Assembly (NCBI GenBank): GCA_016218825.1
Contig: JACRCV010000101.1
Span: 1 to 64,000, forward strand
DNA: 64,000 bases
Source: Deltaproteobacteria bacterium
GTDB taxonomy: Bacteria; Myxococcota; XYA12-FULL-58-9
Direction of reading: 5' to 3'
A model generated the notes under the pieces. That model was not told the origin of the DNA. It searched no databases and saw nothing but the letters and a program-made list of their open reading frames with translations. The translations under genes were made by a program, and so were the position numbers. This document shows, in pieces, positions 309 to 48,186 of this stretch (positions are counted from its first letter, which is position 1; each line of letters starts with the position of its first letter).

Positions 309-3206
309 CTACCACGCCGCCGCCGCCCTCACCGTCACGGGAGCCCCCGCGCGGAGGTACAGCGCCCCCGGCCGTCGCCCTCGGGGCACCTCCATGGTCA
401 GCTCCCGGGACCCCGCGGGCACCTCCAGCGGAAGCCCCCAGGGCCCCACGGTCAGCGTTGTGGGTTGAGATGCTTCAACCAACAGATACAACCGCGTGAC
501 AACTCCGTTGGCGCCCTCAAGGGACAACCGCACCCCTCGCCCGGTCACCCGCCTGGGGCGCCGAGAGCCCGCCACCCGCCGCCCCGGCTCGTGCAGGAGC
601 GCCAGGAGCCCGAAGGCGTCCGGCAGCGGGGCCTCGCCCCCGAGGGCCTCCAGCGCCAGGGCCTCGGAGCCCGGGGCGTGGAGCGCCACCAGGGCCCCCG
701 CGCAGGCCCTCCGCGTGAGGGGGTAGCGCGTGCTGGTAAGCGTCCCCCGCAGCGCCTCCGAGGCCGACGGCTCTCCAAGGGCACCCAGGGCCCTCGCGGC
801 CTCCGGCGCCAGGCGCGGGTCCCCGAGGAGGTGCTCCCAGGCCCCGAGGCTCCTCGGGTCCCGGAGCGCCTGGAGCGAGGCCACCGCCCGGTCCCGTACG
901 CTCTCTGGCGTGCCCGCGGCGGTGACCAGCTCCGTGAGCCCGGGCACCGCCGCGCGGTCCCCCAGGGCCCCGAGCGCCAGCGCCCCGCGGGTGCGTTCAA
1001 ACCCCTCGGAGAGCGCGCGGCGGGAGCCCTCCAGGCCCCGCGGGTCCCCCAGGAGCGCCAGCGAGAGCGAGGCCTCCGTGGAGAGCAGCGTGTCCGTCGA
1101 TGCGCTGGCCGCGGCCAGGGCCCCGAGCACCTCCGGGCGCCGCACCCCGAGGTCTCCCAGCACCCTCGCGGCCCTCCTGGCCACGGGCCTCTCACTCTCC
1201 GTGAGGAGCGACGCGACCTCGACGGCCACCGAGGGGTCCCCCTGGATCGCGCGGTTGAGCGCGTCGGGGAGCTCCAGCGCGGCCTCCCTCGGGCGACCCT
1301 GGGCCTCCGCTCGAGCGTGGCCGGCCTCCCACGTTGCCAGGGCCCCCCGGAGCCTCTCCACCGACGCGGGATCCTCGTCCGCCAGGTTCTGGCGCTCCCT
1401 CGGGTCCTGCACCAGGTCGTAGAGCTCAAGGGACCCGGACTGCTCGTCCACGATGAGCTTGTGGGTGCCCTCCACCACCATCCTCAGGCTCCCCGTGGAG
1501 GCGAACACCCGCGGGGCCTGGAGCGCTCCAAAGGCCAGCGGTCCCAGGTCCGAGCCCCGCACCCTCGGGGGCCTCGGGGCCCCGATCCCCTCCAGGAGCG
1601 TCGCCGCCAGGTCCACCAGGCTCACCGGCGTGTCCACCCGCCGCGAGGGGAGCCCGGGACCCGAGAGCACCAGGGGCACGCGGACCTGTTCATCGTACAC
1701 CGTGGTGCCATGGAAGCTCCCGCCGTGCTCGCCGAACTCCTCGCCGTGGTCCGCGGTCACGACCCACCCCGGTGTTCGATGAGCGCGCGCGAACAACGAC
1801 TGGAGCGAATGAATCGCGTCGTCGGCGGTCGCCACCTCGGCGTCATAGCGCTGCGCGGCGGAGGTCCCGAAGGGGTGCTCGGGGTGGGCCTCGTAGGGCT
1901 CGTGGGGCTCGAACAGGTGCACCCAGAGGAAGAGCCTCTCGCCGTCCCGGCGGGACCCGAGCCAGCGGGACACCTCGGCCACCCTCGCCCCGGCGTCGCT
2001 GTAGCGCTCCTCGTGGTGGTCAAAGCCAAAGCCCCGGGCGCGCAGGGGGCCGAAGCGGTCGCCGTCCACAGCGAAGACCGCCGGGGGGTAGAACGCCGCG
2101 GTGTGGTAGCCCTCGCGACGGAGCCACGTGGCGAGGGTGTCCCGGTCCACGTCGGCGTTGGGCAGGGCGAGCGCCGCCCGGGCCCAGGTCCCGAGCAGCA
2201 CCGAGGACACCGAGTACGAGGTGTGGGGAGTGGCGCAGTAGGCCCGGGCGTAGAGCACCCCTCGGGAAGCCAGGAGGTCCAGCGTGGGGGCCCTCCCGGC
2301 GCCCCCGAGGGCCCTCAGGCGGTCGGCCCGGAGGGCGTCCACGGTGACCAGCACGAGGTCCCTGCCGGCGAGCGAGAAGTGTGGCCCCGCCGCGCCCCGC
2401 GCCTCGGCCACCGCGCGCTGTCGCGGCGGCCCGAGGAGCCTCCCCAGGGCCGTCGATGGGTAGCGCCCGAGCGGCGCCCCGGCAACCTGGGCCCGGAGGG
2501 CGTGGGACCCCCGGAGACCGAAGACCCCGAGCGCGCCCGCCAGGACCAGCGCCCCCAGGGCCGCCCGTCCCCGGGCCGCGGGCGGAGGGGTGGCCCGCGC
2601 CGCGAGTCCGAGCGCCCCGAGCGCAAGGAACGCGTGGAGGCCAGGGTAGAGCCTCGGGAGCACCCTCGCGTGGGCGAGGTATACCAATACACAGAGAACT
2701 CCATTGAACACTCTCCAAGGCACACGGAGTTGTGTGTTGAAGAGCCTGCCCCAGCGGCGCCCGGTGGCGGCCCCCAGGGCGAGCCCCAGGGCCAGCGAGA
2801 GGGCCTTGAGCCCGGGCCCCAGGCCGCTGCGGGAGACGGCCCCGCCGGAGAACGCCGCGAGGCCCAGGAGCCCCCCGAGGCCCGCCCCGAGGGCCGCCCC
2901 GAGGCCCCGGCGCCACCGCGGGGAGAGCCCCTGGAGGCCCGCGAGGGCGGCGTCCAGGGCGAGCGCCGCCGCCGCCGAGGCGGCGCCCACCACGCATGCC
3001 AGGGAGAGGCCCAGGCGCAGCGAGGCGAGGGGCGCGAGGCCCCCCGTAGCGACCGCCCAGAGCGCGTCCAGGGCCCCGAGGGCCGCGCCGGTCCGCGCAG
3101 CGGCGCCTGCGCGGGAGGGGCCCGACGGTCCCGGCGCGACCTCGGAGGTCAGCAGGACGTGCCGGACGCCGCGCGGGCCTCGAGGGTCAGCATCCAGTTG
3201 CTGCAC
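309..3206 (-). CDS. Membrane-anchored sulfatase/phosphoethanolamine-transferase-like protein with HEAT repeats
   Basis: 965 residues. The first ~240 are Ala/Leu/Gly-rich with several membrane segments. From about residue 280 there is an alkaline-phosphatase-superfamily (sulfatase) domain: LVLVTVDALRADRL carries the first metal-binding Asp and VTADHGEEFGEHGG (~485) the later Asp-His pair. The usual Cys/Ser-x-Pro-x-Arg sulfatase nucleophile is absent. ATPHTSYS stands in its place, more like LTA-synthase or EptA-type enzymes that use Thr, so this may be a phospho-group transferase or hydrolase acting outside the membrane. From ~690 to 890 come HEAT-like helical repeats (RRAARVLGDLG, SLALLGDPRGLEG), then a short beta-rich end. 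The chosen start overlaps the upstream lipoprotein gene by 58 bases; a GTG slightly downstream is possible. The substrate cannot be read. Confidence 0.8.
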   Translation of the reverse strand: MQQLDADPRGPRGVRHVLLTSEVAPGPSGPSRAGAAARTGAALGALDALWAVATGGLAPLASLRLGLSLACVVGAASAAAALALDAALAGLQGLSPRWRRGLGAALGAGLGGLLGLAAFSGGAVSRSGLGPGLKALSLALGLALGAATGRRWGRLFNTQLRVPWRVFNGVLCVLVYLAHARVLPRLYPGLHAFLALGALGLAARATPPPAARGRAALGALVLAGALGVFGLRGSHALRAQVAGAPLGRYPSTALGRLLGPPRQRAVAEARGAAGPHFSLAGRDLVLVTVDALRADRLRALGGAGRAPTLDLLASRGVLYARAYCATPHTSYSVSSVLLGTWARAALALPNADVDRDTLATWLRREGYHTAAFYPPAVFAVDGDRFGPLRARGFGFDHHEERYSDAGARVAEVSRWLGSRRDGERLFLWVHLFEPHEPYEAHPEHPFGTSAAQRYDAEVATADDAIHSLQSLFARAHRTPGWVVTADHGEEFGEHGGSFHGTTVYDEQVRVPLVLSGPGLPSRRVDTPVSLVDLAATLLEGIGAPRPPRVRGSDLGPLAFGALQAPRVFASTGSLRMVVEGTHKLIVDEQSGSLELYDLVQDPRERQNLADEDPASVERLRGALATWEAGHARAEAQGRPREAALELPDALNRAIQGDPSVAVEVASLLTESERPVARRAARVLGDLGVRRPEVLGALAAASASTDTLLSTEASLSLALLGDPRGLEGSRRALSEGFERTRGALALGALGDRAAVPGLTELVTAAGTPESVRDRAVASLQALRDPRSLGAWEHLLGDPRLAPEAARALGALGEPSASEALRGTLTSTRYPLTRRACAGALVALHAPGSEALALEALGGEAPLPDAFGLLALLHEPGRRVAGSRRPRRVTGRGVRLSLEGANGVVTRLYLLVEASQPTTLTVGPWGLPLEVPAGSRELTMEVPRGRRPGALYLRAGAPVTVRAAAAW

Positions 3207-4417
3207 GACGCGCCCGAGTAGTACCGCACCTCAATGAAGTAGTCCCGGCTGTCATTGCTGACCAGCGTGTCGGAGATGGAGAACTCCACCGTGTCGGTCA
3301 CCCCCGCCAGGGCCCGGGAGGAGCCCAGGAGCGACCCGCAGGGCCCGTACACGAAGAGGTCGTAGTCCACCCCCATGGGGACCGTGAGCGTCACCCGGTG
3401 AGAGATCCGCGAGGGGCAGTTGCTGCACTCGGTGATCCTCGCCCGGAACCACGCCGCCGCGCGGCCGCTGCGGGAGTTCACCACGCGGTAGCTGGTGGAG
3501 CCGCAGAAGGTCCCGCAGCCGTTGTCCCCGCAGAAGGCCCCGAGGTCCGTCCCCATCCCGCAGGCGAGCCCCGACGGGTTGTGGTTCAGCTCGCACCCGT
3601 CGCTGCCGCCGTTGCAGTCCGAGAAGCCCGCGCGGCAGCCCGCCGTGGTGCACGTCCCGCCCATGCACACGGCCATGGCCCCGGTGCCCGAGCAGGCGTT
3701 CCCGCAGCGGCCGCAGTGACGCAGGTCCGTGCTGGTGTCCACGCAGAGCGTCGAGCCCCCCGAGGCGCACATGGTGCGCGGCGCCATGCAGGTGCCCCCG
3801 CAGGACCCGCTGGCGCACATGCTCCCGGCGGGGCAGGCGTTGCCGCAGCGGCCGCAGTGGGCCGGGTCCGAGGCGGTGTCCACGCAGCTCGTGCCGCACG
3901 CCGTCTGCCCCGTGGGGCAGGCGCAGCGCCCCGCGGCGCAGCGCTGCACCGAGGAGCACACGTTGTCGCAGCGCCCGCAGTGGCGCTCGTCGGTGCGAGG
4001 GTCCACGCAGCGCATGTCACACGCCACCATCGGGGACGTACACGTCACGTCCGGCGGGGGCGCGTCGGGCTCCGGGGTGCCCGTGTCCGGGGGAGGCGTG
4101 GAGGTGTCCGGCGGAGGCGTGGAGGTGTCCGGCGGAGGCGTGGAAGTATCTAGGGGCTCCGTGTCCGGAGGCGGTTGCGTGTCGGGGGGGTGCTCCGTGT
4201 CCGGGGTGCTCCCCGTGTCTGGTGGATCTGTGTCCTCCGGGGGGAGCACGAAGCCGTCCCGCTCGGGTGGTACGTCCACCGCGGCGTCGCCCGGCGAGGG
4301 CGCCCCGTCCGGGTCCATGTCCCCGTCGCCCTTGGCGCAGGATAGCACCAACCCCAGCGCCAGCGCTCCACACCGGCCCAGAACTCCAAGACTTCGCACG
4401 ACCTCCGACGGTAACAC
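3149..4417 (-). CDS. Cysteine-rich lipoprotein with PDT repeats
   Basis: 422 residues. A signal peptide ends in a lipobox (LGLVLSC), so this is an outer-surface or periplasmic lipoprotein. Residues ~50-125 form a disordered Pro/Asp/Thr linker with tandem PPPDTST units. Then follow at least four cysteine modules of the form HCGRCGNAC...C, like the Stig1/stigma-type repeats common in myxobacterial secreted proteins. The last ~130 residues look like a beta-sandwich (VDYDLFVYGPCGSLLGSS, DYFIEVRYYSG), resembling bacterial pre-peptidase-type domains. The function is unknown; the layout suggests a surface protein stabilised by disulfides. The gene directly precedes the sulfatase gene and overlaps its start. 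A related protein is encoded at 58974-60203. Confidence 0.85.
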   Translation of the reverse strand: MLPSEVVRSLGVLGRCGALALGLVLSCAKGDGDMDPDGAPSPGDAAVDVPPERDGFVLPPEDTDPPDTGSTPDTEHPPDTQPPPDTEPLDTSTPPPDTSTPPPDTSTPPPDTGTPEPDAPPPDVTCTSPMVACDMRCVDPRTDERHCGRCDNVCSSVQRCAAGRCACPTGQTACGTSCVDTASDPAHCGRCGNACPAGSMCASGSCGGTCMAPRTMCASGGSTLCVDTSTDLRHCGRCGNACSGTGAMAVCMGGTCTTAGCRAGFSDCNGGSDGCELNHNPSGLACGMGTDLGAFCGDNGCGTFCGSTSYRVVNSRSGRAAAWFRARITECSNCPSRISHRVTLTVPMGVDYDLFVYGPCGSLLGSSRALAGVTDTVEFSISDTLVSNDSRDYFIEVRYYSGASCSNWMLTLEARAASGTSC

Positions 4418-4430
4418 TTTCCCGCCGGGG

Positions 4431-4589
4431 CTACACCGTGACGTAGCCGGCCCGCACCGCGAAGGCCAGGAGGAGCCCCGCGAAGGCGAGGAACAGCACC
4501 AGCCGGAAGACGAATTTCACGAACTTCCAGGCCAGGCACAGCACGCAGAACGCCGCCAGGGCGGCGAGACCGAGCTCCGTGGGGCTCAC
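4431..4589 (-). CDS. Small membrane protein coupled to recG
   Basis: A 52-residue ORF with a GTG start inside the recG stop (GTGA overlap at 4586-4589). It begins MSPTELGLAALAAFCVLCLA and has two hydrophobic stretches (~8-20 and ~28-44) separated by WKFVKFVFR, a positively charged turn. It ends AGYVTV and stop. The overlap matches the tight coupling of gene pairs across this window, which supports translation. No family is recognised. It could equally be a chance open frame, but the hydrophobic pattern with basic flanks is typical of a real small membrane protein. Confidence 0.55.
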   Translation of the reverse strand: MSPTELGLAALAAFCVLCLAWKFVKFVFRLVLFLAFAGLLLAFAVRAGYVTV

Positions 4590-6751
4590 CCCGCCTCCTC
4601 TCCCACGGGGGCGGCGCCCCGCGCAAGAATCCGCCGCACCGCCCGGGCCAGCTCACCCCGCCGGGCGAGCGTCGGGTCCTCGTCGAGGAGCCTCCGGGCC
4701 AGGTCCCTCGCCTGCCCCAGCCTCGCGCTGTCCCTGGTCGGGTCCGCGAAGCGGAGCGTGGTGTCCACGCCCGTCTGCCTCGACCCGAACCACTCGCCGG
4801 CGCCCCGGCGGGCGAGGTCCCTCTCGGCCAGGAGGAAGCCGTCGTGGCATTGCGCCACCTCCTGGAGCCTCGCCAGTGCGTCCTCCGAAGGGGCCTCGGG
4901 CACCAGGACGCAGCCCGCCTTCTGGCCGCCGCGACCGACCCTCCCCCGGAGCTGGTGGAGCTGGGCCACGCCAAAATGCTCGGCCCCGAGCACCACCATG
5001 AGGTTCGCCTCGGGCACGTCCAGCCCCACCTCCACCACGGTGGTCCCAAGGAGCACCGGACGGCGCCCCCGACGGAAGTCCTCCACCCCCTGGCGCTGGG
5101 CCTCCGCGGGGAGCGCGCCGTGAACGATCGCGAGGCGCTCCTCCCCCACCGCCTCGGCCAGCCACACGGCGGTGTCCTCCACGCTGGTAGTGCCGTCCAG
5201 GTCGGGCTTGATCCGGGGGGCCACCACAAAGACCCTGCCCGCCCCTTCCCCGGCGGCCAGGGCCCGCTGGATCGTCCGGACAACATAACCACGATCCTCC
5301 GGGTCCGCCACCCGGGTGGTCACCAGCTGCCTCCCCGCAGGCTTTTCATCGAGGGTGAGCACGTCCAGGTCGCCATAGAGCGCCAGCGCCAGCGTCCGGG
5401 GGATGGGCGTGGCGCTCAAGACCAAGAGGTGCGGCGACGGGCTCCTGCCGGCCACCATGGCGAGCCTCTGGGCCACGCCGAAGCGGTGCTGCTCGTCGAT
5501 CACCGCGAGGCCCAGCCCCGGGGGCGTGGCCCCGGCCTCCAGGAGCGCGTGGGTGCCCACCACCACGCGGACAAGGCCCTGGGCGATCACCCTCTCGGCC
5601 TGCTTGCGGGCGCGGGCCCCGGTGCTTCCCAGGAGCACCGCCACGGGGCCCCCGTCCCCCGCCAGGCCCCGCTCCAGCGTGCGGGCATGCTGCTCGGCCA
5701 CCAGGGTCGTCGGGCACAGCCAGGCCACGCTCCCCCCGCCGCGGAGCACGGCCAGGGAAGCCGCCAGGGCCACGGCGGTCTTGCCCGAGCCCACGTCCCC
5801 CACGAGCAACCTCCGGGACGCCCGCGGCTGCGAGAGGTCCGTGAGCAGCACGGCGATGGCCCGGGCCTGCCCGTGGGTCAGGGGGAAACCCAACCGTGAA
5901 GAGACCCTCCGGGCGCTCTCTCCGTCGTCCCGGAAGGGCCTCGCGCCGCCCGCCGCGCGGCGCGTACGCTCCAGCGCCACGGCCAGGGCCAGGAGCTCCT
6001 CGAAGCCGAGGGCCTGGTGGGCCTCCGAGCGCCCGTCCGCCAGGGCCTGGAGCTCCGTAGCGCCGAGCTTGTCGTCCGGGAGATGGATCCGTCGGAGGGC
6101 CTCGGAGGGAGCCAGGAGCCCGAGGGCCCTGGCGTCCCCGGGAGGCACCGGCGAGGCCCACTCCGACGCGCGCTCCAGAGCGCCCGCGACGAGCCTCGCG
6201 ACGGTGCCCGGGGCCAGGGCCCCGATGGCGCCGTAGGCCGGCTCGATGGGGCGGGTGCGCGTGGTGGGTGAGAGCACCCTGGGCTGGACGAGCTCGGGCC
6301 CCACGGGGCCCCGGCGCAGCGTGCCCACCACGCGCACCGTGGCCCCCACGGCGCAGCGCTGCCCGAGGCCCTTGTGGGCGTGGAAGAACACCGCCCGTAG
6401 CACCGTGGTGCCCCGCGGCTCCTGGAGGGCGAGCTGGAGCCTCCGGGCGCTCGGTGGGCCCGCCCAGCGGGCGTCTGCGACGCGGGCCTCGATGGCCACC
6501 AGGGTCCCCGGTGGGCCGTGCCGCACGAGCCTCCAATCGTCCGCGCGGCGCAGGTCCAGGTAGCGCCGAGGGAGGTGCCCGAGGAGGTCCCCGGCGGTCT
6601 TGAAGCCCCGGGAGCGGAGCACCGCGGCCACGTGGCCTCCCACGTTGGGCAGGGCCTCCACGGGCAGGTCTTGAAGGTCCACGGGCTCCGCGGGGGCGGG
6701 GCTCGTTGGAGCGGCCGGAGCCTTCGGGGGCCGAGGGGGAGTGCCCGTCAT
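4586..6751 (-). CDS. recG: ATP-dependent DNA helicase RecG
   Basis: 721 residues from the chosen ATG (MTGTPPRPPK). An in-frame extension upstream would overlap greA and is not needed. RecG remodels stalled replication forks and Holliday junctions. It has a helix-hairpin-helix-like N-terminus (LPNVGGHVAAVLRSRGF), an OB-fold wedge (~100-200), Walker A (GDVGSGKT, ~320), a DEQH box (VIDEQHRFGV, ~416) and conserved helicase motifs such as SATPIPRTL and the C-terminal QLRGRVGRGG with TTVVEVGLDVP. Length and motif order fit the family. It ends in a 4-base overlap with a small membrane ORF and lies 40 bases downstream of greA on the same strand, so the three may be cotranscribed. Confidence 0.95.
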   Translation of the reverse strand: MTGTPPRPPKAPAAPTSPAPAEPVDLQDLPVEALPNVGGHVAAVLRSRGFKTAGDLLGHLPRRYLDLRRADDWRLVRHGPPGTLVAIEARVADARWAGPPSARRLQLALQEPRGTTVLRAVFFHAHKGLGQRCAVGATVRVVGTLRRGPVGPELVQPRVLSPTTRTRPIEPAYGAIGALAPGTVARLVAGALERASEWASPVPPGDARALGLLAPSEALRRIHLPDDKLGATELQALADGRSEAHQALGFEELLALAVALERTRRAAGGARPFRDDGESARRVSSRLGFPLTHGQARAIAVLLTDLSQPRASRRLLVGDVGSGKTAVALAASLAVLRGGGSVAWLCPTTLVAEQHARTLERGLAGDGGPVAVLLGSTGARARKQAERVIAQGLVRVVVGTHALLEAGATPPGLGLAVIDEQHRFGVAQRLAMVAGRSPSPHLLVLSATPIPRTLALALYGDLDVLTLDEKPAGRQLVTTRVADPEDRGYVVRTIQRALAAGEGAGRVFVVAPRIKPDLDGTTSVEDTAVWLAEAVGEERLAIVHGALPAEAQRQGVEDFRRGRRPVLLGTTVVEVGLDVPEANLMVVLGAEHFGVAQLHQLRGRVGRGGQKAGCVLVPEAPSEDALARLQEVAQCHDGFLLAERDLARRGAGEWFGSRQTGVDTTLRFADPTRDSARLGQARDLARRLLDEDPTLARRGELARAVRRILARGAAPVGEEAG

Positions 6752-36410: not shown

Positions 36411-36428
36411 GCATTGAGGGAGGTTTCT

Positions 36429-38075
36429 ATGAGCGACTGGTGGCGTGGCCAGCGTCGGCTCCTCGGCAACGACGAGGCGGCTGCGCAGAGGGCGGAGCGG
36501 GCGGCGCTCGCCCGCGTGACCGCGGTGCCCCTCGTGGATCCGCGGTTCCACGCGGAGATGGCGCAGCTCGCGGCACGCCCCCGCGAGGCGATCACACTCG
36601 GCACTGCGACCGCCGATCCCCGCGTCATGGTGCGCGTCCCGACCAACGAAGCCGGCCTCGGCGGCCACACCGTGGTGCTCGGCGGGAGCGGCACCGGCAA
36701 GACCATGCTCGCGCTCGCGCTCGCGCGTGAGCGCCTTCGACGGTTCGCCCGCGACCCCGACGGCGAGGGCTTCTACGCGCACGACCACAAGGCCGAGTTC
36801 GTGCCCCTGCTGTGCGAGGTCATCGGCGAGCTCGTCGACGAACTCCCGAAGGCCGAGGCGCGTCGCCTCCTCGATCGCCTCGTCGTCATCAACCCGTTCT
36901 CGACGGAGGCGCTCATCCCCTTCCAGATCCTGAAAGCCGAGCCCGGCGTCGCGCCCGAGCTGCAGGCCTTCGAGGCGACGACGCTCGTCAACCGCCTGGG
37001 CGGCGCCGCGTGCGGCGTGAATCAGGACGACTTCCTCTACAAGGGCCTGCTCGCGTGCGTGACGCTCAACATCTCGATGCCGGAGTTCGCGCGCCTGCTC
37101 GACCGCCCCGCCGAGTTCTGCGCGCTCGCGGCGCAGTGCCCGTCGGCCGAGGCGCGCTCGTACTTCGCCGGGGGCGTGCGCGTCACGGCCGCCGCCCTCC
37201 AGGGCCTGCGGGCGCGTATCGACCGCCTGCTCCGACTCCCCGCGACGCGGCAGATGCTCGGCGCGAAGGACTCGCTGCCCCTCCGCAGACTCATGACGTC
37301 GCACGTCATCCTCGTCAACGACGGCGCCCCGCCGCTGGGCTGCGAGGACATCGGCGCCTTCTGGCGCGGGCTCCTCGCGCTCAAGTTCACCCGCGCGATC
37401 TTCGAGCGGGCGCCTGAGGAGGTCGCGCGCCCAGTCGCGGCCTTCATCGACGAGTGGCAGGAGGGGCTCGCCGCCGGGGGCGACATCGCGGACCACTACG
37501 AGCGCGTGCTCAGCATGGCGCGCTCACGCGGGGTGTTCCTGACGCTGATCTCGCAGTCGCTCGCGGGCGCCGCCAAGGTCTCGGCGTCGCTCCCGAAGGT
37601 CGTCGCGACCAACACCAACACGCAGATCCTCTTCCGGGCGTCGATCGAGGACGCCCGCGCCATGGCCCACATACTCCCTGTGACCGGGCGCGCGCCGCGT
37701 CCGGCGGGGCTCCCGTGGGAGGGGCGCGCCCGCTCGCCGTACCTCACGCCGCAGGAGGAGTTGCAAGCCCGGATCGAGGAGGCCGCGTCGCTCCCCGACC
37801 GGACGTTCTACCTCTGGAACCGGCGTCGACCGTACCGCGCGGTCCTCGCGCAATCGGTGGACGTCACGATCCGGCGAACCGTGATGCGCGCCGCGGACCT
37901 CGCGTGGCGGCTCCGCAACGGCGCCCTCGCGGTCCCCGTCGACGACCTCCGCGCGACGGAGCCGCAGCCGCCGGAGGGAACGTTCCGCGTGGTGTCGCCC
38001 GACGAGGCCGACCCTCCCGCCGTCGCGGCGTGGCCGTCGCGCCGCCCGCGCCGGGGTGGTCCACGCGGCCCGTGA
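36429..38075 (+). CDS. VirD4/HerA-like P-loop ATPase
   Basis: 548 residues from an ATG with GGGAGG five bases upstream. Walker A is VLGGSGTGKTMLA (~85-95) and Walker B is VAAFIDEWQEGL (~337), followed by SRGVFLTLISQSLAGA and TNTNTQILFRASIEDA, typical of the motif order in type IV coupling/TraG-like ATPases. No N-terminal transmembrane helices are present, unlike classical VirD4. The gene follows the E2-like/JAMM/membrane cluster by 18 bases on the same strand. It may pump DNA in conjugation, or be the motor of a defence complex. A second HerA-type ATPase is encoded at 52615-53952. Confidence 0.82.
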   Translation: MSDWWRGQRRLLGNDEAAAQRAERAALARVTAVPLVDPRFHAEMAQLAARPREAITLGTATADPRVMVRVPTNEAGLGGHTVVLGGSGTGKTMLALALARERLRRFARDPDGEGFYAHDHKAEFVPLLCEVIGELVDELPKAEARRLLDRLVVINPFSTEALIPFQILKAEPGVAPELQAFEATTLVNRLGGAACGVNQDDFLYKGLLACVTLNISMPEFARLLDRPAEFCALAAQCPSAEARSYFAGGVRVTAAALQGLRARIDRLLRLPATRQMLGAKDSLPLRRLMTSHVILVNDGAPPLGCEDIGAFWRGLLALKFTRAIFERAPEEVARPVAAFIDEWQEGLAAGGDIADHYERVLSMARSRGVFLTLISQSLAGAAKVSASLPKVVATNTNTQILFRASIEDARAMAHILPVTGRAPRPAGLPWEGRARSPYLTPQEELQARIEEAASLPDRTFYLWNRRRPYRAVLAQSVDVTIRRTVMRAADLAWRLRNGALAVPVDDLRATEPQPPEGTFRVVSPDEADPPAVAAWPSRRPRRGGPRGP

Positions 38076-38255
38076 GGGCGTCCCGGGAGTAGTCCCGGAG
38101 AGGGCTCGCGTCGGGCGCCACGCCCCCCGCGCGCCGCGCCATCCACGATGTGGAGGCCACCATCCACCAGGAGCAGCCAACGCGGAGCGAGCAATCCTTG
38201 CGGTGCGAGTTCGATCGGGTACCGGACCCAATCCTCACCCTTCACCTCGCACCCT

Positions 38256-38408
38256 ATGAACAACTCCATGCTCTGCAACGTCCTCGGCGAGATCTCGCCC
38301 TGGAGCTCGCAACTCATCCCGCCGCTCGGACTCCTCGTGCTCGTCTACGTCCTCATCCGCCCCCGGCGCCGCTCGGCGCGGTACTGGTCTGCCTGGCGCA
38401 GGCGCTGA
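38256..38408 (+). CDS. Possible small membrane protein
   Basis: 50 residues, beginning MNNSMLCNVLGEISPWSSQ. It has one clear membrane segment (LIPPLGLLVLVYVLI) followed by a very basic tail (RPRRRSARYWSAWRRR), a positive-inside pattern. There is no good ribosome-binding site. The AT-richer codons at the start differ from the surrounding sequence. It could be a real single-pass peptide; the evidence is only composition. The 180 bases before it contain a short palindrome (CCGGGAGTAGTCCCGG) just after the ATPase stop. Confidence 0.35.
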   Translation: MNNSMLCNVLGEISPWSSQLIPPLGLLVLVYVLIRPRRRSARYWSAWRRR

Positions 38409-38829
38409 ACCGCGCTGCCTCGGCGTTTGCGGCGCGGCCCGGGCCGGAGCGGAGGCGCTGCGCGGCGCGCGTGGGTGCGGCCCGGGTCGGGATCGCCCGA
38501 CCGGGCGGGACGGTTCTACGCGGCACGCCACGGCGAGTGGAGCCCGCATCGGGCTACGCGATGCGGAGCCTCACGCGTCGCAGGAAGAGCCACGCGGGCG
38601 TCGGTGGCCCGCTGATGGACGGTGCCTTCACGCGGAGGCCGACCGGGGTCGTGGGTCCGGAGCCCCGACGACCTCGCACCGCCAGGACCCGCTCTCCCCG
38701 CCACGCCACGGGCGACCGCGCGAGAGACCGCGTCCAAGAGCGCCCCAGGCGCCGCAGCAGCGGCTTGACGGCCCCGGTCGCGCCCCGCGCCCTTTTCCAC
38801 GACGCACCCCCGACACCACGAGGTCACCC
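38409..38829. other. Intergenic region with no recognised gene
   Basis: Very GC-rich sequence. Long open frames exist on both strands but are Arg/Gly/Pro-rich and repetitive, as expected from chance in such DNA. No promoter, terminator or RNA structure could be identified. Confidence 0.4.
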
Positions 38830-39156
38830 ATGAAGGGCTTCTCCACCCCCACGCCAGCGCGCATCGTCGTCGCTGTTCTGCTCCTGCCCGTCTTCGCGCT
38901 CTACGGCCTCTACGTCGCCCTGGTCGAGGCCGCCGCGCTCGTCGCGGGCCTCGGTCGATCGCGCGCCGCGCACGCCGACACGCTCCACTGCCCGCACGGC
39001 CACCCCAACGCCACCGTCGGGCGGTTCGCCTGCGCGAGCTGCCACGCCACCTACCTCGGCTGGGTCGGGCGCTGCGCGATCTGCGGCGCAGGCGCGGGGT
39101 GGGTGCCGTGCGAGGTCTGCGACGTGAGCATCCCGCTGCCCTGGGAGCGGCCGTGA
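38830..39156 (+). CDS. Membrane protein with zinc-ribbon domain
   Basis: 108 residues. One transmembrane helix (IVVAVLLLPVFALYGLYVAL, ~12-31) is followed by two zinc-ribbon-like units: CPHGHPN...FACASCHATY and CAICGAG...CEVCDVSI. The ATG at 38830 follows a CGAGGTCACCC sequence with a weak ribosome site. It overlaps the replication-relaxation gene by 4 bases (GTGA), so the two form an operon. A membrane-anchored zinc-binding adaptor is the simplest reading; I know no family name. Confidence 0.7.
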   Translation: MKGFSTPTPARIVVAVLLLPVFALYGLYVALVEAAALVAGLGRSRAAHADTLHCPHGHPNATVGRFACASCHATYLGWVGRCAICGAGAGWVPCEVCDVSIPLPWERP

Positions 39157-39989
39157 CGGCGGCACGGGTGAAGCGCGGGCTCCCTCGGGCCGCGCCGCGG
39201 TCGATTCTCAATGAGCGCCACTACGACGCGCTCGAGAGGATCCAGTGGGCGCGCTTCCTCTCGACCGGGCAGGTGAGGCGCAGCGCACCCTACCCCTCGG
39301 ACCGGACGGCGCAGAGGGGTCTGCGCGGACTGCTCGACCACCGACTCGTGAGCGCGCACCTCCAGGGCGAGGCGCTCCAGCGGGAAACCGTGTTCACGGT
39401 CACGGCGCGGGGACTCGAGGCGCTAGCCGCGGCGGTCCGGCTCGAAGGCCCGCTTCCCCCGCCGACGCGCATCCCGCGACCCCAGAAGCTCCGACACGCG
39501 CTCGCCATCCGCGACGTCTTCTGCGCGTACCTCGTCGCCGAGCGCGAGGGCCACCTCGACCTCGTGGACTTCCACTTCGACAGCGACCTCGCGGGCGACG
39601 CGCGCTTCCAGGCCGCGGGCCTCGTCCCCGACGCCGTCGTCGTGACCGAGCGCGGCGGCGGGCGGACGACGGCCGGGATCGAGGTGGACCTCGGCACCGA
39701 GCCCACACGCGTGCTGCGCGACAAGTTCGACCGCTGGCGCCAGATTCTGTCGGCGGCCACCGTCGCGGCGGCGGCCGCCCCGACGACGCTTATCGTGACC
39801 GCGGCGCGCCCGACGCGACGGGCCACGATCCAGCGCCTCGTCGAGGACGCGGGCGTGGGGGCCGTGACGAAGGTCGTGCTCGCAACCGAGCTGCCCGGTC
39901 TGCTCCGGGCGGACGTTGCGGATGCGCCGACGCCGCCCGAGGCGCGAGCCGCGCCCGAGGATGCTCCCGTGCGCTTCCGCGTGCTGTAG
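39153..39989 (+). CDS. Replication-relaxation family protein (copy 1)
   Basis: 278 residues from a GTG overlapping the previous stop. The N-terminus is a winged-helix domain (LERIQWARFLSTGQVRRSA, AQRGLRGLLDHRLVSAHL, FTVTARGLEALAAA). The second half has the nuclease-like core of the family: LRHALAIRDVFCAYL, GLVPDAVVVTERG, TAGIEVDLGTEPT and RDKFDRWRQIL. Such proteins are found on plasmids and integrative elements, often next to TraG/HerA-like ATPases, as here. They are thought to assist replication or mobilisation; direct evidence of enzymatic activity is lacking. A second copy is at 54137-54976. Confidence 0.75.
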   Translation: MTAARVKRGLPRAAPRSILNERHYDALERIQWARFLSTGQVRRSAPYPSDRTAQRGLRGLLDHRLVSAHLQGEALQRETVFTVTARGLEALAAAVRLEGPLPPPTRIPRPQKLRHALAIRDVFCAYLVAEREGHLDLVDFHFDSDLAGDARFQAAGLVPDAVVVTERGGGRTTAGIEVDLGTEPTRVLRDKFDRWRQILSAATVAAAAAPTTLIVTAARPTRRATIQRLVEDAGVGAVTKVVLATELPGLLRADVADAPTPPEARAAPEDAPVRFRVL

Positions 39990-40069: not shown

Positions 40070-40888
40070 ATGAATAACAATCAGTTGCCACCGGCAAGAC
40101 ACATGGCAAGGCGCGAGCTCTTGAATTCTTGCCACGGGTCGGACGACACTCCGGCCGTGGACGACGCCATCACCGAACGCCGGGCCATTGGAGAGCGGGT
40201 GGACCAGCTTCTCTCGGAGAAGGTGCCGCCCTGGACGCGGGCTCACCTCGCGCGCGAGAGCGGCGTACCGGAGTCGACGATCTCTCGGGTCAGCAACGGC
40301 GTGCGTGCGCCGACGATCGAGGTGATCGAGGCCATCGCGAAGGCTCTCGGCATGTCCGCGGCGCAGCTCGTCGCCGGCACGGACTCCGAGGACCGCCTCG
40401 CGGAGGCCGAGCGTCTCGTGCGCCGCGCCGACTACGAGGCGATGCGCGCGAAGATGATCGAGTTCGAACGGAGGGCCAACGACCTCGACTCGATCGCCGC
40501 CCAGACGCGCGAGGCGCTCGAACAGGAACGCGCGCGCTCGCGGCAACTTCGCGAGGACGCCGCGCGGCTGACCCTGGAGCGTGATGACGCCCGACGCGAG
40601 GCCGACGCCCACGAGGCCGAGGCGCACCGGCTGCGGTTCGGACTCGAGCGTGCGGTGGTGGAGATCACCGAGCTCCGCCGACAGCTCAAGGAGGTGTCCG
40701 ACGCCGTCGAGTCGACGCGGCGCACGGGCCGCATCGCGGCAGTGCTCGCGGGCATCGCCGCGATCCCGGTCATCGCCACGGTGAGCGACTTCCTCCGGGA
40801 TGACGACGAAGCCCCGCCGCCCCCAGCCCGCGAGGACGCGGCGGGGCGCCCCCGACCAACGCGATCCCGCAAGCGATCGCAGCGGTGA
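40070..40888 (+). CDS. XRE-type HTH protein with coiled coil and membrane segment
   Basis: 272 residues from the ATG at 40070; an ATG at 40103 (MARRELLNS) is an alternative. Residues ~45-100 form a Cro/C1-type helix-turn-helix (LARESGVPESTISRVSNGVR, followed by IEAIAKALGMSAAQL). A long coiled coil follows (~105-215: REALEQERARSRQLREDAA). Near the end is a probable membrane helix (IAAVLAGIAAIPVIATV). A DNA-binding protein anchored to the membrane could tether DNA or act as a regulator. It lies at the end of the ATPase/replication-relaxation gene group, 80 bases downstream. Confidence 0.75.
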   Translation: MNNNQLPPARHMARRELLNSCHGSDDTPAVDDAITERRAIGERVDQLLSEKVPPWTRAHLARESGVPESTISRVSNGVRAPTIEVIEAIAKALGMSAAQLVAGTDSEDRLAEAERLVRRADYEAMRAKMIEFERRANDLDSIAAQTREALEQERARSRQLREDAARLTLERDDARREADAHEAEAHRLRFGLERAVVEITELRRQLKEVSDAVESTRRTGRIAAVLAGIAAIPVIATVSDFLRDDDEAPPPPAREDAAGRPRPTRSRKRSQR

Positions 40889-40923
40889 CCCGAACCCAAG
40901 CTTGCAGCAGGGAGCACTGGACC

Positions 40924-41250
40924 ATGGCCCGATTCAGCGACCCCCTCCACCCCCGGCACGCGGCCGCGCGCTTCGCGTACCGCGCCGGCAACTACATCCT
41001 CCACTTCGACGACGGGACGGCGTACTCCGGGCGCCAGAGCCCGAGCTCGGACCGCATCGGCAAGCACCTGCGCCGCCACGGTCCGTCGCTCGTCGCGGTG
41101 CAGATCATGATGGACCACGCCGACGACCCGTGCCGGCGCGCGGCGCGCGAGAAGGCTGCGGTGCGCGCCCTGCGCGCCGACCTGATCCCCGTCCGCAACC
41201 GCGTGACCCCCTCTACGCCGCGCCTGTGTGTCGGCGCTCACGAAAAGTGA
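40924..41250 (+). CDS. Small hypothetical protein whose 3' end is interrupted by the IS
   Basis: 108 residues as read, starting MARFSDPLHPRHAAARFAY. The core (YILHFDDGTAYSGRQSPSSD, RHGPSLVAVQIMMDHADDPC) is compact and likely soluble. The last six codons come from the IS left end. If the IS and one copy of the 8-base target duplication are removed, the frame continues at 43371 as CLRLPNGW and stop, so the original protein would have ended at 43391. The insertion thus changed only the last residues and may not have inactivated the gene. No function is recognised. Confidence 0.6.
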   Translation: MARFSDPLHPRHAAARFAYRAGNYILHFDDGTAYSGRQSPSSDRIGKHLRRHGPSLVAVQIMMDHADDPCRRAAREKAAVRALRADLIPVRNRVTPSTPRLCVGAHEK

Positions 41251-41280
41251 CCCACCTGTGCTCGCGAGAAGTGACCTACA
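41229..41280 (+). repeat. Left terminal inverted repeat of the IS
   Basis: It begins TGTCGGCGCTCACGAAAAG and continues with TGACCCACC, then a second unit TGCTCGCGAGAAGTGACC. It aligns over ~50 bases with the reverse complement of 43311-43362. The two-unit structure is what an IS21-type transposase and its ATPase partner would bind. Confidence 0.85.
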
Positions 41281-41513
41281 CCGCGGAGCACGTTTCCGAT
41301 CCGATCTTCCCCCCTTGTTGAAGACTCTGCGCGGGGTGGAGGGAGGCATCTCAGGATGGACGTCTCGCCGCGGGGGCGACCGTCGTCGTCACGGGGAGGT
41401 CAACGGGATGTCGGTGGACGTCGGCGGGCCGGTCGAGCGACCGGGCGTCGAGGCGGCACCGTGTCGGTGCCGGGGAGGGTGGGGGTGTCGAGGCGGGCCG
41501 ACGAGGGCCGGGT

Positions 41514-42248
41514 CTACGGCTCGGGCGAGCGGAGCGAGTCGCCCGCGATGCGGATCGTGGTGCAGCGGTGGCGCAGGCGGTCGAGCAACGCGCCGACCAT
41601 CTCCTTGCGGCCGAGGAAGTCGTACCAGGCGTCGTACTCGAGGTTCGTGGTGATGACCGTCGAGTGACGGTTGTAGCGCTCCTCCATCAGCTTGAAGAAG
41701 AGGTTGGTCTGCTCGGGGCGCAGGTTCAAGTAGCCCATTTCATCGATCAGCAAGACGTCGAGTCGCGCGAGGTGATCGAGGAGCTTGCGCGACGAGCGGT
41801 CGGCCATCGAGGTGTACAGCTCGTCGAAGAGGTCCTGCGCCTTGACGAAGAGGCAGCGGTAGCCGTTCTCCAAGGCCTTCAGCAGAATCGAGGAGGCGAT
41901 CCCGGTCTTGCCCGTGCCCGTGGGGCCGATGAGCACGACGTTGCGGTGCTGGGCGATGAAGTCCAGCTCCGCGAGCTGCTTGACCGAGTCGGCGGGCACC
42001 CCCAGCTGCCGCTCGAAGGGGAAGGTCTCCAGCGTCCAGCGCTCGGGGATCTTCGCACGGCGGATGCGCGCGACGACCCGCTGCTCGCGCTGCGCATCGA
42101 CCTCCTCGCGCAGCAGCCCCACGAGGAAATCGCGGTAGCTCGCGTGGGTCTTCTCGGCGCGCGCGAGGTCGCGCTCCAGGATGGAGGCGACGCGCCGGAG
42201 CCGGAGCGTCGCGAGCAGTTGATCGAGTTCGTCATCCGAGCGTTTCAT
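41514..42248 (-). CDS. istB: IstB-like ATP-binding protein
   Basis: 244 residues. IstB is the AAA+ partner that loads the IS21 transposase onto target DNA. Signatures: Walker A VLIGPTGTGKTGIA, Walker B LDVLLIDEMGYLNL, then VITTNLEYDAWYDFLG and GALLDRLRHRCTTIRI. The N-terminal helical region (LLATLRLRRVASILERDLAR) is also typical. The ATG at 42248 has a strong ribosome site (GGGGAGGTGACG). The frame is open further upstream and runs without a stop into the ParB-like domain, so a fused 402-residue product is possible. Elsewhere it pairs with istA, which is missing here. Confidence 0.88.
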   Translation of the reverse strand: MKRSDDELDQLLATLRLRRVASILERDLARAEKTHASYRDFLVGLLREEVDAQREQRVVARIRRAKIPERWTLETFPFERQLGVPADSVKQLAELDFIAQHRNVVLIGPTGTGKTGIASSILLKALENGYRCLFVKAQDLFDELYTSMADRSSRKLLDHLARLDVLLIDEMGYLNLRPEQTNLFFKLMEERYNRHSTVITTNLEYDAWYDFLGRKEMVGALLDRLRHRCTTIRIAGDSLRSPEP

Positions 42249-42722
42249 CGTCACCTCCCCGGTCGGGGTCGTCGGGTGCGAGGCGGAAGTACGTCGCCCC
42301 GAGCGTTCGCAAGGCCATGGTCGGGCCAGGCGCCGACAGACCCAACTCGCCGTGCGGCCCATGCGCCGACCGAGCTCGCGCTGCCCCAGCCCGTGCGGGC
42401 CGAGGAGCTCGCGCACCAGCCAGGCCTCCTCGAGAGCCTCGAGGCGGCGCCCGCCCGCGAGCCGCCACGCGCGCATCATCGCCTCGACCTCGTCGCACCC
42501 GAGGTCCATCGCCGCGACGGCGTCGCGCCCGAGCGAGCGAAGTGCCCGCACGCGGCGGTAGCCGTCCACCAGCACGAAGCCCGTGGCGGAGTCGGCGAAG
42601 ACCAGCACGGGGTGCCGCTGCCCCTCCGCGAGCAGCGATGCGGTGAGCCGCGCCTCGCGCGCCGGATCGCGGAGGCGAAGTGCCTCGTAGCGCAGCTCGA
42701 TCTGGTGGTGCTCCAACTCCAT
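42249..42722 (-). CDS. ParB-like nuclease domain, N-terminal part, in frame with IstB
   Basis: About 158 codons from an ATG at 42722 (MELEHHQIELRYEALRLRDP). RLTASLLAEGQRHPVLVFAD, VLVDGYRRVRALRSLG and the HTH-like QRELGRRMGRTASWVCRRLA are the ParB N-terminal fold followed by the start of the KorB-type HTH domain. The rest of a ParB protein is missing. After RRLA the sequence loses ParB character and runs in frame into IstB. A neighbouring frame ends in a stop right at the IstB start, so a frameshift or deletion may have fused two formerly overlapping genes. The role in transposition is unknown; ParB proteins bind and slide on specific DNA. Confidence 0.7.
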
Positions 42723-42738
42723 GGAAACGCCGAGAACG

Positions 42739-43230
42739 CTACGGATCTCGTCTCGCCGAGGCGATCGTGTCTCGCGGGGGGTGCGGGGGAAGTCCCGCCG
42801 ATTCCCGTGTGCTCTCCACGGGTTGAGAAGGCATCTCGTCTCGTCGGGAGTCGGGGCGGACTTCCGCCGATTGCCGCGTGGTATCAACGAGTTGAGCGAG
42901 GATCTCGTCTCGCAGGCCCTGGGCGATCCGTCGCAGGCACTGGCGAAGCACGCGCGCCGCGAGCACGCCGAGCAGCGCATCGACGGCGCCCCACTGGATG
43001 CAGGCGGTCGGGTCTCTCGAGGCGGGCGCGGGCGTCGCGGGGGTCGCGATGCGCGAGGCCACGCGGTCGTCGCGAAGAGAGCCGTCGTTACGGCGGTGCC
43101 AGTCCTTGCAAGAGCGCCGGTGCCGCTCGCGCTGACAGGCGACGCTCCCGCAGCAACGCTGACGCGCGCCGACGCGGGGGTGGGGCTGGAACCAGCGACG
43201 ACAGATCGGGCAGGGGCGACGAGGGGTCAC
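42739..43230 (-). CDS. Zinc-ribbon protein of the IS, with 23-residue repeats
   Basis: 163 residues. The Cys/His cluster CPICRRWFQPHPRVGARQRC, then CGSVACQRERHRRSCKDWHR, is shared with the remnant element's protein at 32665-33297. This is a conserved small zinc-binding module, likely DNA-binding. The C-terminal third consists of 23-residue repeats starting RDE/RDT (copies at about 42763, 42832 and 42901 in DNA). It is the first gene after the right IS end and precedes the ParB-like gene by 17 bases. I know no named family; its conservation between two elements argues for a function in transposition or its control. Confidence 0.7.
   Translation of the reverse strand: MTPRRPCPICRRWFQPHPRVGARQRCCGSVACQRERHRRSCKDWHRRNDGSLRDDRVASRIATPATPAPASRDPTACIQWGAVDALLGVLAARVLRQCLRRIAQGLRDEILAQLVDTTRQSAEVRPDSRRDEMPSQPVESTRESAGLPPHPPRDTIASARRDP
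42744..42969. repeat. 69-base tandem repeats inside the IS zinc-ribbon gene
   Basis: Copies of GATCTCGTCTCG or variants start near 42763, 42832 and 42901, 69 bases apart, with an extra copy of the motif at 42744. The inner parts (CCGATT.CCG and GTTGAG) are less conserved than in the remnant's repeats. They encode 23-residue units. Same period and lead motif as at 32749-33024. Confidence 0.65.
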
Positions 43231-43310
43231 CCCCGGACCGAAGCGCGGGCCACCCGCCCCCGCCGACGGGGACCCTGCTCACCAGAAGTGACCCACCGGG
43301 GGGCCGATCG

Positions 43311-43362
43311 GGTGGGTCACTTCTCGTGAGCAGACCCGGGTCAAATCTCGCGAGCGCCGACA
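43311..43362 (-). repeat. Right terminal inverted repeat of the IS
   Basis: Read on the minus strand it begins TGTCGGCGCTCGCGAGATT, then TGACCCGGG and TGCTCACGAGAAGTGACC, matching the left end. Just inside it, 43275-43297 pairs almost perfectly (22 of 23) with 43311-43333. This makes a further inverted copy of the inner motif just upstream of the zinc-ribbon gene start, where it could also act as an operator. Confidence 0.85.
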
Positions 43363-43677
43363 CGCCTGTGCCTCAGGCTTCCGAACGGCTGGTGACCGGA
43401 TGTCCTGCCGAGCCTGATGGCCATCATTTTGACGTGTGTGGCCAACGTCGGCGGCTCCCACCGCACCCGACCGCGCTGTCCCGGCCACCGCCAGCGAGGG
43501 GGCCGCACGGGCGGTGCGGCGCCACCGGAACGACGGCCGCGGCGAGATCTGGTGCCCCTCCGGTGTCGGTGGAGCACCCCAGAGCTACGTCGGCGTCGCG
43601 ACGTAGAGGCCGTCCGAAGATAGCGAGCCTCTGCCGAAATTTTGGTGAACATACGCACAGGAGCATGCTCGGGAGAT
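43363..43677. promoter_or_regulatory. Upstream region of the wHTH gene, with an operator-like inverted repeat
   Basis: After the target duplication and the native end of the interrupted gene (stop near 43391) there is no gene. At 43584-43605 an inverted repeat CTACGTCG...CGACGTAG stands some 70-90 bases before the start of the large wHTH protein gene, which is a likely place for an operator. An AT-rich stretch (GAAATTTTGG) lies at 43636-43645. GGGAG at 43671-43675 is a good ribosome site for the ATG at 43678. Confidence 0.45.
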
Positions 43678-45873: not shown

Positions 45874-46056
45874 GCCGGACATGCGCCCCCGGGAGGTGGA
45901 AAGTCGGGGGGAATCGAGGTGGAACTTCCTCGGGATCCTCCCACTTGCTTCCCACCCTCTCTCGACCGACAGCACTGCCCTCGCACCCTACGGTCTGGGT
46001 GCGATCCGACGCGAGGCTGCGAGGCCCGCACAACCCGGATCGCGCTCGAGGACCGG

Positions 46057-46380
46057 ATGAGCAACGACGAGAACAAGCAGCCCGAGATCACCCACGACGA
46101 GGTCGATATCGAGGAGTACGCGAAGCGCGGCGAGGCGCCGCCGAACGCCCGGCGGTACCGCATCCGCGTCGACCGGGAGAAGCACACGGTCACGGTGCCG
46201 AAGATGTCGGGGCGCGACCTCCTCAAGCTCGCGGGCAAGGTGCCGCCCGAGCGCTTCTCGCTCACGCAGAAGTTCCGCGGCGGCGCGGTGAAGCCCGTGG
46301 GCCTCGACGACACGGTGGTCTTCACGACGCCGGGCGTCGAGTGCTTCATGACCCTCCCGCTCGACCAGACGGAGGGCTGA
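46057..46380 (+). CDS. Ubiquitin-like protein (multiubiquitin-domain family)
   Basis: 107 residues. After a ~25-residue acidic N-terminus comes one beta-grasp domain of the multiubiquitin family: ARRYRIRVDREKHTVTVPKM, SGRDLLKLAGKVPPERFSLT, LDDTVVFTTPGVECFMTLPL. GRxLLxLAG and PGVExF are the hallmark phrases. Relatives carry several tandem copies; this one has a single copy. The C-terminus is DQTEG, with one terminal Gly rather than Gly-Gly. The protein is likely adenylated by the E1 encoded two genes downstream and attached to a target. It heads an operon with E2, JAB-E1 and DUF6527 genes separated by 1 base or by 4-base overlaps. An upstream in-frame extension was rejected. Confidence 0.88.
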   Translation: MSNDENKQPEITHDEVDIEEYAKRGEAPPNARRYRIRVDREKHTVTVPKMSGRDLLKLAGKVPPERFSLTQKFRGGAVKPVGLDDTVVFTTPGVECFMTLPLDQTEG

Positions 46381-46381
46381 C

Positions 46382-46789
46382 ATGCGCCGCCAGTTCCGCC
46401 TCCCGCCCGACGACGAGACCCACCTCGACTCCCTGGGCCTGCCCTGGGAGACCGTGGTCGACGCCAACGTGCGCTGGCTGATCGTGCACGACCGGCCGGT
46501 GCCCGCCGGCTACACGGCGGAGCGCGTCCGCGTCGCGCTCCAGATCCCCGCGGGGTACCCCGACGTGCAGCTCGACATGGTCTACTTCGAGCCCGCGCTC
46601 GCGCGGCGCGACGGCGGCGCGATCGGCGCGCTCGCCGCGCAGACGATCGAGGGGCGCCCCTGGCAGCGGTGGTCGCGCCACCGCACGCCCCAGAACCCGT
46701 GGCGCCCCGGCATCGACGACGTGGCGGCGCACCTCCTGCTCGTCGACCACTGGCTCCGTCGCGAGCTCGGCGCGTGGGTGTCGCCGTGA
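46382..46789 (+). CDS. E2/UBC-like protein, prokaryotic family E, without cysteine
   Basis: 135 residues. FRLPPDDETHLDSLGLPWE, VRVALQIPAGYPDVQLDMVY and RPWQRWSRHRTPQNPWRPG, followed by DDVAAHLLLVDHWL, match the E2 family E layout (a YP...DM strand and a WxRW-His segment). There is not a single Cys in the protein, so it cannot form a thioester. Either this family transfers the Ubl otherwise (a conserved His is present in SRHRTP and AAHLLL) or it is a non-catalytic E2 variant. It starts one base after the Ubl stop and overlaps the JAB-E1 gene by 4 bases, which fixes it in the operon. Confidence 0.85.
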   Translation: MRRQFRLPPDDETHLDSLGLPWETVVDANVRWLIVHDRPVPAGYTAERVRVALQIPAGYPDVQLDMVYFEPALARRDGGAIGALAAQTIEGRPWQRWSRHRTPQNPWRPGIDDVAAHLLLVDHWLRRELGAWVSP

Positions 46790-48186
46790 GGCGCCGCCTG
46801 CGCATGACGGCCGACCAGCACGCACGCCTCGCAGCGCACGTGCTCGCACCCGACGGGTGTGAGGCCGCGGCCGTCCTGATCTGCGGGCGCGGCCGCGGCG
46901 ACGACGCCGAGGTCCTCACCGTCCGCGAGGTCCACCCGGTGCCGTACGAGGCGTGCCCGGTGCGGGAGCCCGACCGCCTCACCTGGCGGACCGAGACGAT
47001 CGCGCCCCTCGTCGCGCGTGCGGCGAAGGAGGGCCTCGCGGTCGTGAAGGCGCACGGCCACCCGGGCGGGCGGCGTGCCTTCTCCCCGACCGACGACGCG
47101 GCGGACCGCGAGCTCTTCCGGTCGGTGCACGGCTGGACCGACGACGGCCGCCCCCACGGCAGCCTCGTGGTCGTGCCCGGCGGCGAGTGCATCGCGCGCT
47201 TCGTCGACGAGGCGGGGGCGTTCGCGCCGGTCGACCTCGTCACGGTCGTGGGCGACGACCTCCGCCTCTTCTGGCGCGACGCCGTCGCGACGGGGCCGCC
47301 CGGGTTCGCGCGGCGCCACGCCCAGGCCTTCGGCGAGGGCACGGCCGACGCGCTGCGACGCCTCTCCGTCGCCGTGGTCGGCGTGTCGGGCACCGGCGGC
47401 CCGGTGGTCGAGCAGCTCCAGCGCCTCGGCGTCGGGCGGCTCGTGCTCGTCGACCCCGACCGCGTCGAGGAGCTCAACCTCAACCGCATCCCCCACGCGA
47501 CCCGCGACGACGCGCTCCGCAAGCGCCCGAAGGTCGATGTCGCGGCGGAGGCCGTGCGGCGCACGGGGCTCGGCACCGAGGTCGTGACCTACGCGCGCAA
47601 CCTCAAGGACCCCGAGGTCGTGCGCGCAATCGCGACCTGCGACCTCGTGTTCGGGTGCATGGACGGCGCGGAAGGAAGGCACCTCCTGAACCGCCTCGCG
47701 ACGTTCTACGTGCTCCCGTACATCGACGTGGGCGTGCGCCTCGACGCCGACGGCCGGGGCGGCGTGAGCCAGATCTGCGGCAGCATCCACTGGCTCACGC
47801 CCGGCGGGTCGAGCCTCCTCTCGCGCGGGGTGATCTCGCTCGACGAGGTGGCCGCCGAGGGGCTGCGTCGGCAGTCGCCTGCGGAGTACCGGCGCCGGCG
47901 CGAGGAGAAGTACATCAAGGGCATCCGCGAGGACCGCCCCGCGGTCGTGTCGGTGAACACGACCTTCGCGGGCCTCGCGGTGACCGAGCTCCTCGCGCGG
48001 CTGCACCCCTTCCGCGACGACGGCAACGCGCCCTGCGCGCGCCTCACCTGCACCCTGTCGCAGGTCCGCTTCGAGTGCGCCGAGGACGGCCCCCCGTGCC
48101 CCGTGCTCGCCCGGCACGTCGGCCGGGGCGACGTGGTCCCGCTCCTCCTCGACCCCGAGCTCTCGGAGACGGAGCGGGCCGCGTGA
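46786..48186 (+). CDS. JAB deubiquitinase-E1 (ThiF) fusion
   Basis: 466 residues from a GTG overlapping the E2 stop (GTGA); an ATG at 46804 is possible. The N-terminal ~150 residues are a JAMM domain with a complete motif: KAHGHPGGRRAFSPTDD gives His-x-His and Ser-x-x-Asp (~90-104). The rest is an E1/ThiF-like adenylating enzyme: VVGVSGTGGPVVEQLQRLG is the Gly-rich ATP loop (~195), VLVDPDRVEELNLNRI the Asp-containing motif, and LVFGCMDGAEGRHLLN follows. The Cys in SQICGSIHW may be the thioester residue. One protein would both activate and remove the Ubl. Such fusions are known from bacterial Ubl operons. Confidence 0.9.
   Translation: MRRRLRMTADQHARLAAHVLAPDGCEAAAVLICGRGRGDDAEVLTVREVHPVPYEACPVREPDRLTWRTETIAPLVARAAKEGLAVVKAHGHPGGRRAFSPTDDAADRELFRSVHGWTDDGRPHGSLVVVPGGECIARFVDEAGAFAPVDLVTVVGDDLRLFWRDAVATGPPGFARRHAQAFGEGTADALRRLSVAVVGVSGTGGPVVEQLQRLGVGRLVLVDPDRVEELNLNRIPHATRDDALRKRPKVDVAAEAVRRTGLGTEVVTYARNLKDPEVVRAIATCDLVFGCMDGAEGRHLLNRLATFYVLPYIDVGVRLDADGRGGVSQICGSIHWLTPGGSSLLSRGVISLDEVAAEGLRRQSPAEYRRRREEKYIKGIREDRPAVVSVNTTFAGLAVTELLARLHPFRDDGNAPCARLTCTLSQVRFECAEDGPPCPVLARHVGRGDVVPLLLDPELSETERAA

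Follow-up and report, generated by a model that had tools for sequence, protein, structure and literature searches.

An IS21-type element carrying zinc-ribbon and ParB-like genes is very probably an internally deleted copy of a four-gene insertion sequence

A 2,134-bp element, with its genes on the minus strand, occupies positions 41229-43362 of the window (the whole 64,000-nucleotide stretch of contig JACRCV010000101.1 analysed here). A perfect 8-bp target-site duplication, CGCCTGTG, directly abuts both ends (41221-41228 and 43363-43370), a match that at one fixed position has a chance probability of 1.5e-5. The inverted ends (TGTCGGCGCTC.../...GAGCGCCGACA), located at 41229-41278 on the istB side and at 43313-43362 on the zinc-ribbon side, are identical at 40 of 50 positions, a value reached by 0 of 20,000 random window pairs (the best of these had 29). 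Each end contains two units of the type GCTCACGAGAAGTGACCC spaced 24 bp (GCTCACGAAAAGTGACCCACC and GCTCGCGAGAAGTGACC), and a third, internal copy of the unit is found at the zinc-ribbon end (43277-43297), inverted with respect to the unit at 43311-43331 and separated from it by a 13-bp spacer. We considered the unit as a parS-like palindrome (TCAC-N5-GTGA) and dropped the idea, as this palindrome is not conserved in the units of the relatives described below. The initial annotation, made from the sequence alone, had described an element of the IS21 type whose target duplication is perfect and whose terminal repeats, of about 50 bases, have two units, and in all of these points it was correct. 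The insertion interrupts a host ORF on the plus strand (40885-41228) that, once the element is removed, would code for 122 aa and stop 8 codons beyond the duplication; it contains YILHFDDGTAYSGRQS, recalling GIY-YIG nucleases, and has no Pfam match. On one side of the element, the plus-strand genes at 36414-39989 include a 553-aa ORF with an ATP-binding-like motif and no Pfam match, together with a replication-relaxation protein (PF13814), which suggests a plasmid- or ICE-like setting. On the other side (45919-48186, plus strand) there is an operon coding for a multiubiquitin-domain protein (PF14452), a prokaryotic E2 of family E (PF14462) and a ThiF-E1 with a JAB domain (PF00899, PF14464), so that the element has a bacterial ubiquitin-like conjugation system as its neighbor.

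Three genes lie between the ends, all on the minus strand. The first is an apparently complete zinc-ribbon ORF of 163 aa (42739-43230) that keeps the CxxC...C...C pattern. It is followed by a ParB-like gene (42324-42722) that is represented only by its N-terminal 133 residues, its homology ending within the helix-turn-helix domain; this part is weak in Pfam (E value of 0.06) and matches the NCBIfam ParB/Noc models. The third is an intact IstB of 244 aa (41514-42248), recognized by Pfam PF01695 (E value of 4e-61) and, above the cut-off, by NCBIfam NF038214 (E value of 8e-67). The istB gene has a start of its own, preceded at a short distance by a Shine-Dalgarno-like GGGGAGG. A single open frame of 488 aa (42980-41514), which the initial annotation had overlooked, joins the ParB-like frame straight to IstB, and counted from the ParB-like start at 42722 through IstB, it measures 402 aa. 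No DDE transposase was found between the element ends by ORF inspection and Pfam search, and no nuclease or transposase domain is recognizable in the zinc-ribbon or the ParB-like protein. The gene inventory originally proposed, with IstB plus the zinc-ribbon and ParB-like genes and without a DDE transposase, is thus borne out by ORFs and domain searches.

To place this arrangement among its relatives, 84,980 species genomes were scanned with the window IstB, yielding 80 loci. Mapping of their genes gave the order zinc-ribbon, ParB-like, IstA, IstB, and the ParB-like gene was found together with IstB at 49 loci from many phyla. The proteins encoded between the ParB-like gene and IstB match the NCBIfam IS21 transposase model with E values of 4e-41 to 2e-52, part of them above its curated cut-off and part just short of it; they match the solved IS5376 IstA (8q4d, 8b4h), and the D-D-E residues are kept in 38 of 38 long IstAs aligned. 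The ParB-like proteins of the relatives match ParB/Noc models at the loci tested, and one of them (L026) matches solved Noc structures (phmmer E value of 8e-10). Complete units could be delimited as well. One relative, L022, is a complete four-gene element of 3,937 bp (2135-6071) with terminal repeats similar to those of the window and its own 8-bp duplication, TGAAGAGG; another, L048, has ends with the same layout and a 6-7 bp duplication, and the two-unit ends of L023, L045 and L074 are also laid out as in the window. The ends of the complete copies enclose all four genes, and therefore the extra genes are inside the mobile unit. In the IstB tree, the window copy belongs to a clade of 58 members (support of 100/98), 45 of which have the ParB-like gene. 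Most of the 12 other relatives in the clade are on contigs that end before the expected position of this gene, and in L033 and L076 there was room upstream and the ParB-like gene was not detected. The hosts include Myxococcota, Acidobacteriota, Planctomycetota, Pseudomonadota, Elusimicrobiota, Chloroflexota and others. Within the set, L030 (a contig from a Desulforudis MAG) has an IstA that is only 334 aa long and a ParB-IstB distance of 1,476 bp and is possibly another internally shortened copy.

Against this background, the window copy appears truncated in the middle. Its ParB-like protein, 37 to 55% identical to those of the relatives, stops aligning within the helix-turn-helix domain, near residue 133 of a total of roughly 300, and the stop at this residue is seen against nearly all of them. 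From residue 133 to IstB, there are 75 bp in the window versus a median of 1,884 bp (1,476 to 2,130; n = 49) in the relatives; therefore, ca. 1.8 kb is missing. The deletion junction, placed within a few bases at 42318-42324 (minus strand), was inferred from divergent relatives, as no near-identical full-length sibling was found and the closest IstB is only 67% identical. Directly after the end of the ParB homology, and in a different frame, begins a stretch that is probably what remains of the IstA C terminus (MALRTLGATYFRLAPDDPDRGGDDETLG*, 42232-42318, minus strand). This downstream frame (MALRTLGATYFRLAPDDPDRGG) resembles the IstA C termini of L019 (MVLRTVAGEFFRLPAQDDDRSG), L051 and L043, and its stop overlaps the IstB start, matching the istA/istB overlap of the complete copies. 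The assignment is given as probable, because, though position and overlap are as predicted, the remnant is of ca. 28 residues and its match is weak by itself (best E value of 0.01 within the locus set). The lack of IstA in the window copy is thus very probably due to an internal deletion with a recognizable junction, and the open frame running from the ParB-like gene into IstB is very probably a by-product of it.

We also looked in the source genome for an IstA that could serve the element in trans. It should be noted that the assembly, in 121 contigs, is a draft of 96.5% completeness; drafts often lose IS copies, and a full-length copy may have been lost from this one. The element is present in the draft as one copy only, and no IstA of the relatives' kind was found in it. 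Besides the window IstB, the only full-length IstB match belongs to a complete, classical element of the IS21 family (G000:C82:87002-89513, equivalent to L104:4003-6514) on the same contig as the window, with an IstA of 501 aa plus IstB and a 6-bp duplication (CGTGGG). The rve domain scores only weakly in the IstAs of the relatives, and an rve search of the source genome was uninformative, as it missed this element. As a helper it was rejected, since its ends (TGCTGAGCGACAACTGCAC...) are unlike those of the window; its IstB is 29% identical to the window IstB. The matching istA that had been suggested as a check in the initial annotation was therefore not found in the genome. In the same taxonomic family, one genome (G007) does contain a relative that has the zinc-ribbon, ParB-like and IstA genes.

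Taking all this together, we consider it very probable that the element is a four-gene insertion sequence of the IS21 type in a copy made defective by an internal deletion. A complete copy, of ca. 3.9 to 4.0 kb, carries the zinc-ribbon, ParB-like, IstA and IstB genes between two-unit terminal repeats. By analogy with the IS21 paradigm, IstA would be the protein that binds the terminal units, with IstB activating it and picking the target, and insertion would generate the 8-bp duplication. The deletion of ca. 1.8 kb would have fused codon 133 of the ParB-like gene to the last ca. 28 codons of istA, leaving a copy that retains both ends, the zinc-ribbon gene and istB and would not transpose by itself; any movement would depend on IstA from a complete copy. 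It had been suggested that the extra proteins perform the role of the transposase, and the DDE-free interior of the element is what such a machinery of zinc-ribbon, ParB-like and IstB proteins would look like. This proposal can be dismissed as extremely improbable, because the complete relatives carry both extra genes plus an IstA with D-D-E in every long sequence aligned, the ParB-like gene of the window is cut inside its helix-turn-helix and neither extra protein has a recognizable nuclease or transposase domain. A full-length relative with istA, the finding that had been named as proof that this copy is simply internally deleted, exists several times over. Hardly more credible is the idea, to which the 402-aa open frame might point, that the two genes form a fusion under selection for some new function; IstB has its own start preceded by GGGGAGG, the linker is out-of-frame istA-like sequence, and in the relatives istA separates the two genes.

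A more serious proposal refines the deletion explanation rather than opposing it: the short element might have transposed as such, mobilized in trans by the IstA of a complete relative, with the duplication dating from that event. The intact ends, duplication and IstB are as expected if the copy moved after being deleted, and a relative with the two extra genes and IstA does occur in the same family. However, the draft contains one copy, no related IstA was found in it, the ends of the other IS21 element are unrelated and its IstB is distant, and a deletion after insertion fits equally well; we regard mobilization in trans as possible, if somewhat the less likely course. Deletion before insertion and deletion after it would both give this picture.

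With the internal deletion as the preferred reading, there is no longer an apparent puzzle of an element transposing without its transposase. The defect of the window copy is of an ordinary kind, and what is new is the complete IS21 clade with two extra conserved genes inside its ends. A search of the literature gave nothing relevant on IS21 elements with ParB or zinc-ribbon genes, and the family's four-gene variant seems to have been little described, although the clade may be catalogued in ISfinder. The zinc-ribbon and ParB-like proteins are probably accessory DNA-binding factors, not the transposase. We give an even chance to a widespread IS21 clade that uses both as working partners of IstA and IstB, e.g., in end recognition, target choice or immunity, and from which the window copy derives by deletion. 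Structural work on ATPase-controlled transposition has IS21 as one of its models, regarded as a system of two proteins; a third partner of the ParB-like kind would add to this system in a way that can be tested.

Among known systems, non-autonomous IS derivatives (internally deleted or MITE-like) have, like the window copy, intact ends and a duplication and have lost the transposase gene, but here istB and the zinc-ribbon ORF are kept, and the single copy gives no sign of amplification. With the ParB/Noc family, the ParB-like proteins share the N-terminal domain and the helix-turn-helix (the L026 match). Unlike in canonical ParB CTPases, the ENxQR phosphate-binding motif is not kept in a sample alignment, so that, judging from the residues, the protein is probably not a canonical CTPase, and its gene is located in an IS and not beside parA. 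With IS21 and IS5376, the element shares IstB, terminal repeats of multiple units and the size of the target duplication, which ranges from 4 to 8 bp in this family and is 8 bp in both the window and L022. The complete relatives also share IstA with its D-D-E and the istA-istB order, whereas the window copy has lost istA and is a defective derivative rather than a complete member. IS21 members have been described as having two ORFs (PMC10122671), and their biochemistry as binding of the repeat units by IstA, which is activated by IstB (PMC10122671, PMC11208146); to this two-ORF plan, the complete copies add two conserved upstream genes inside the ends.
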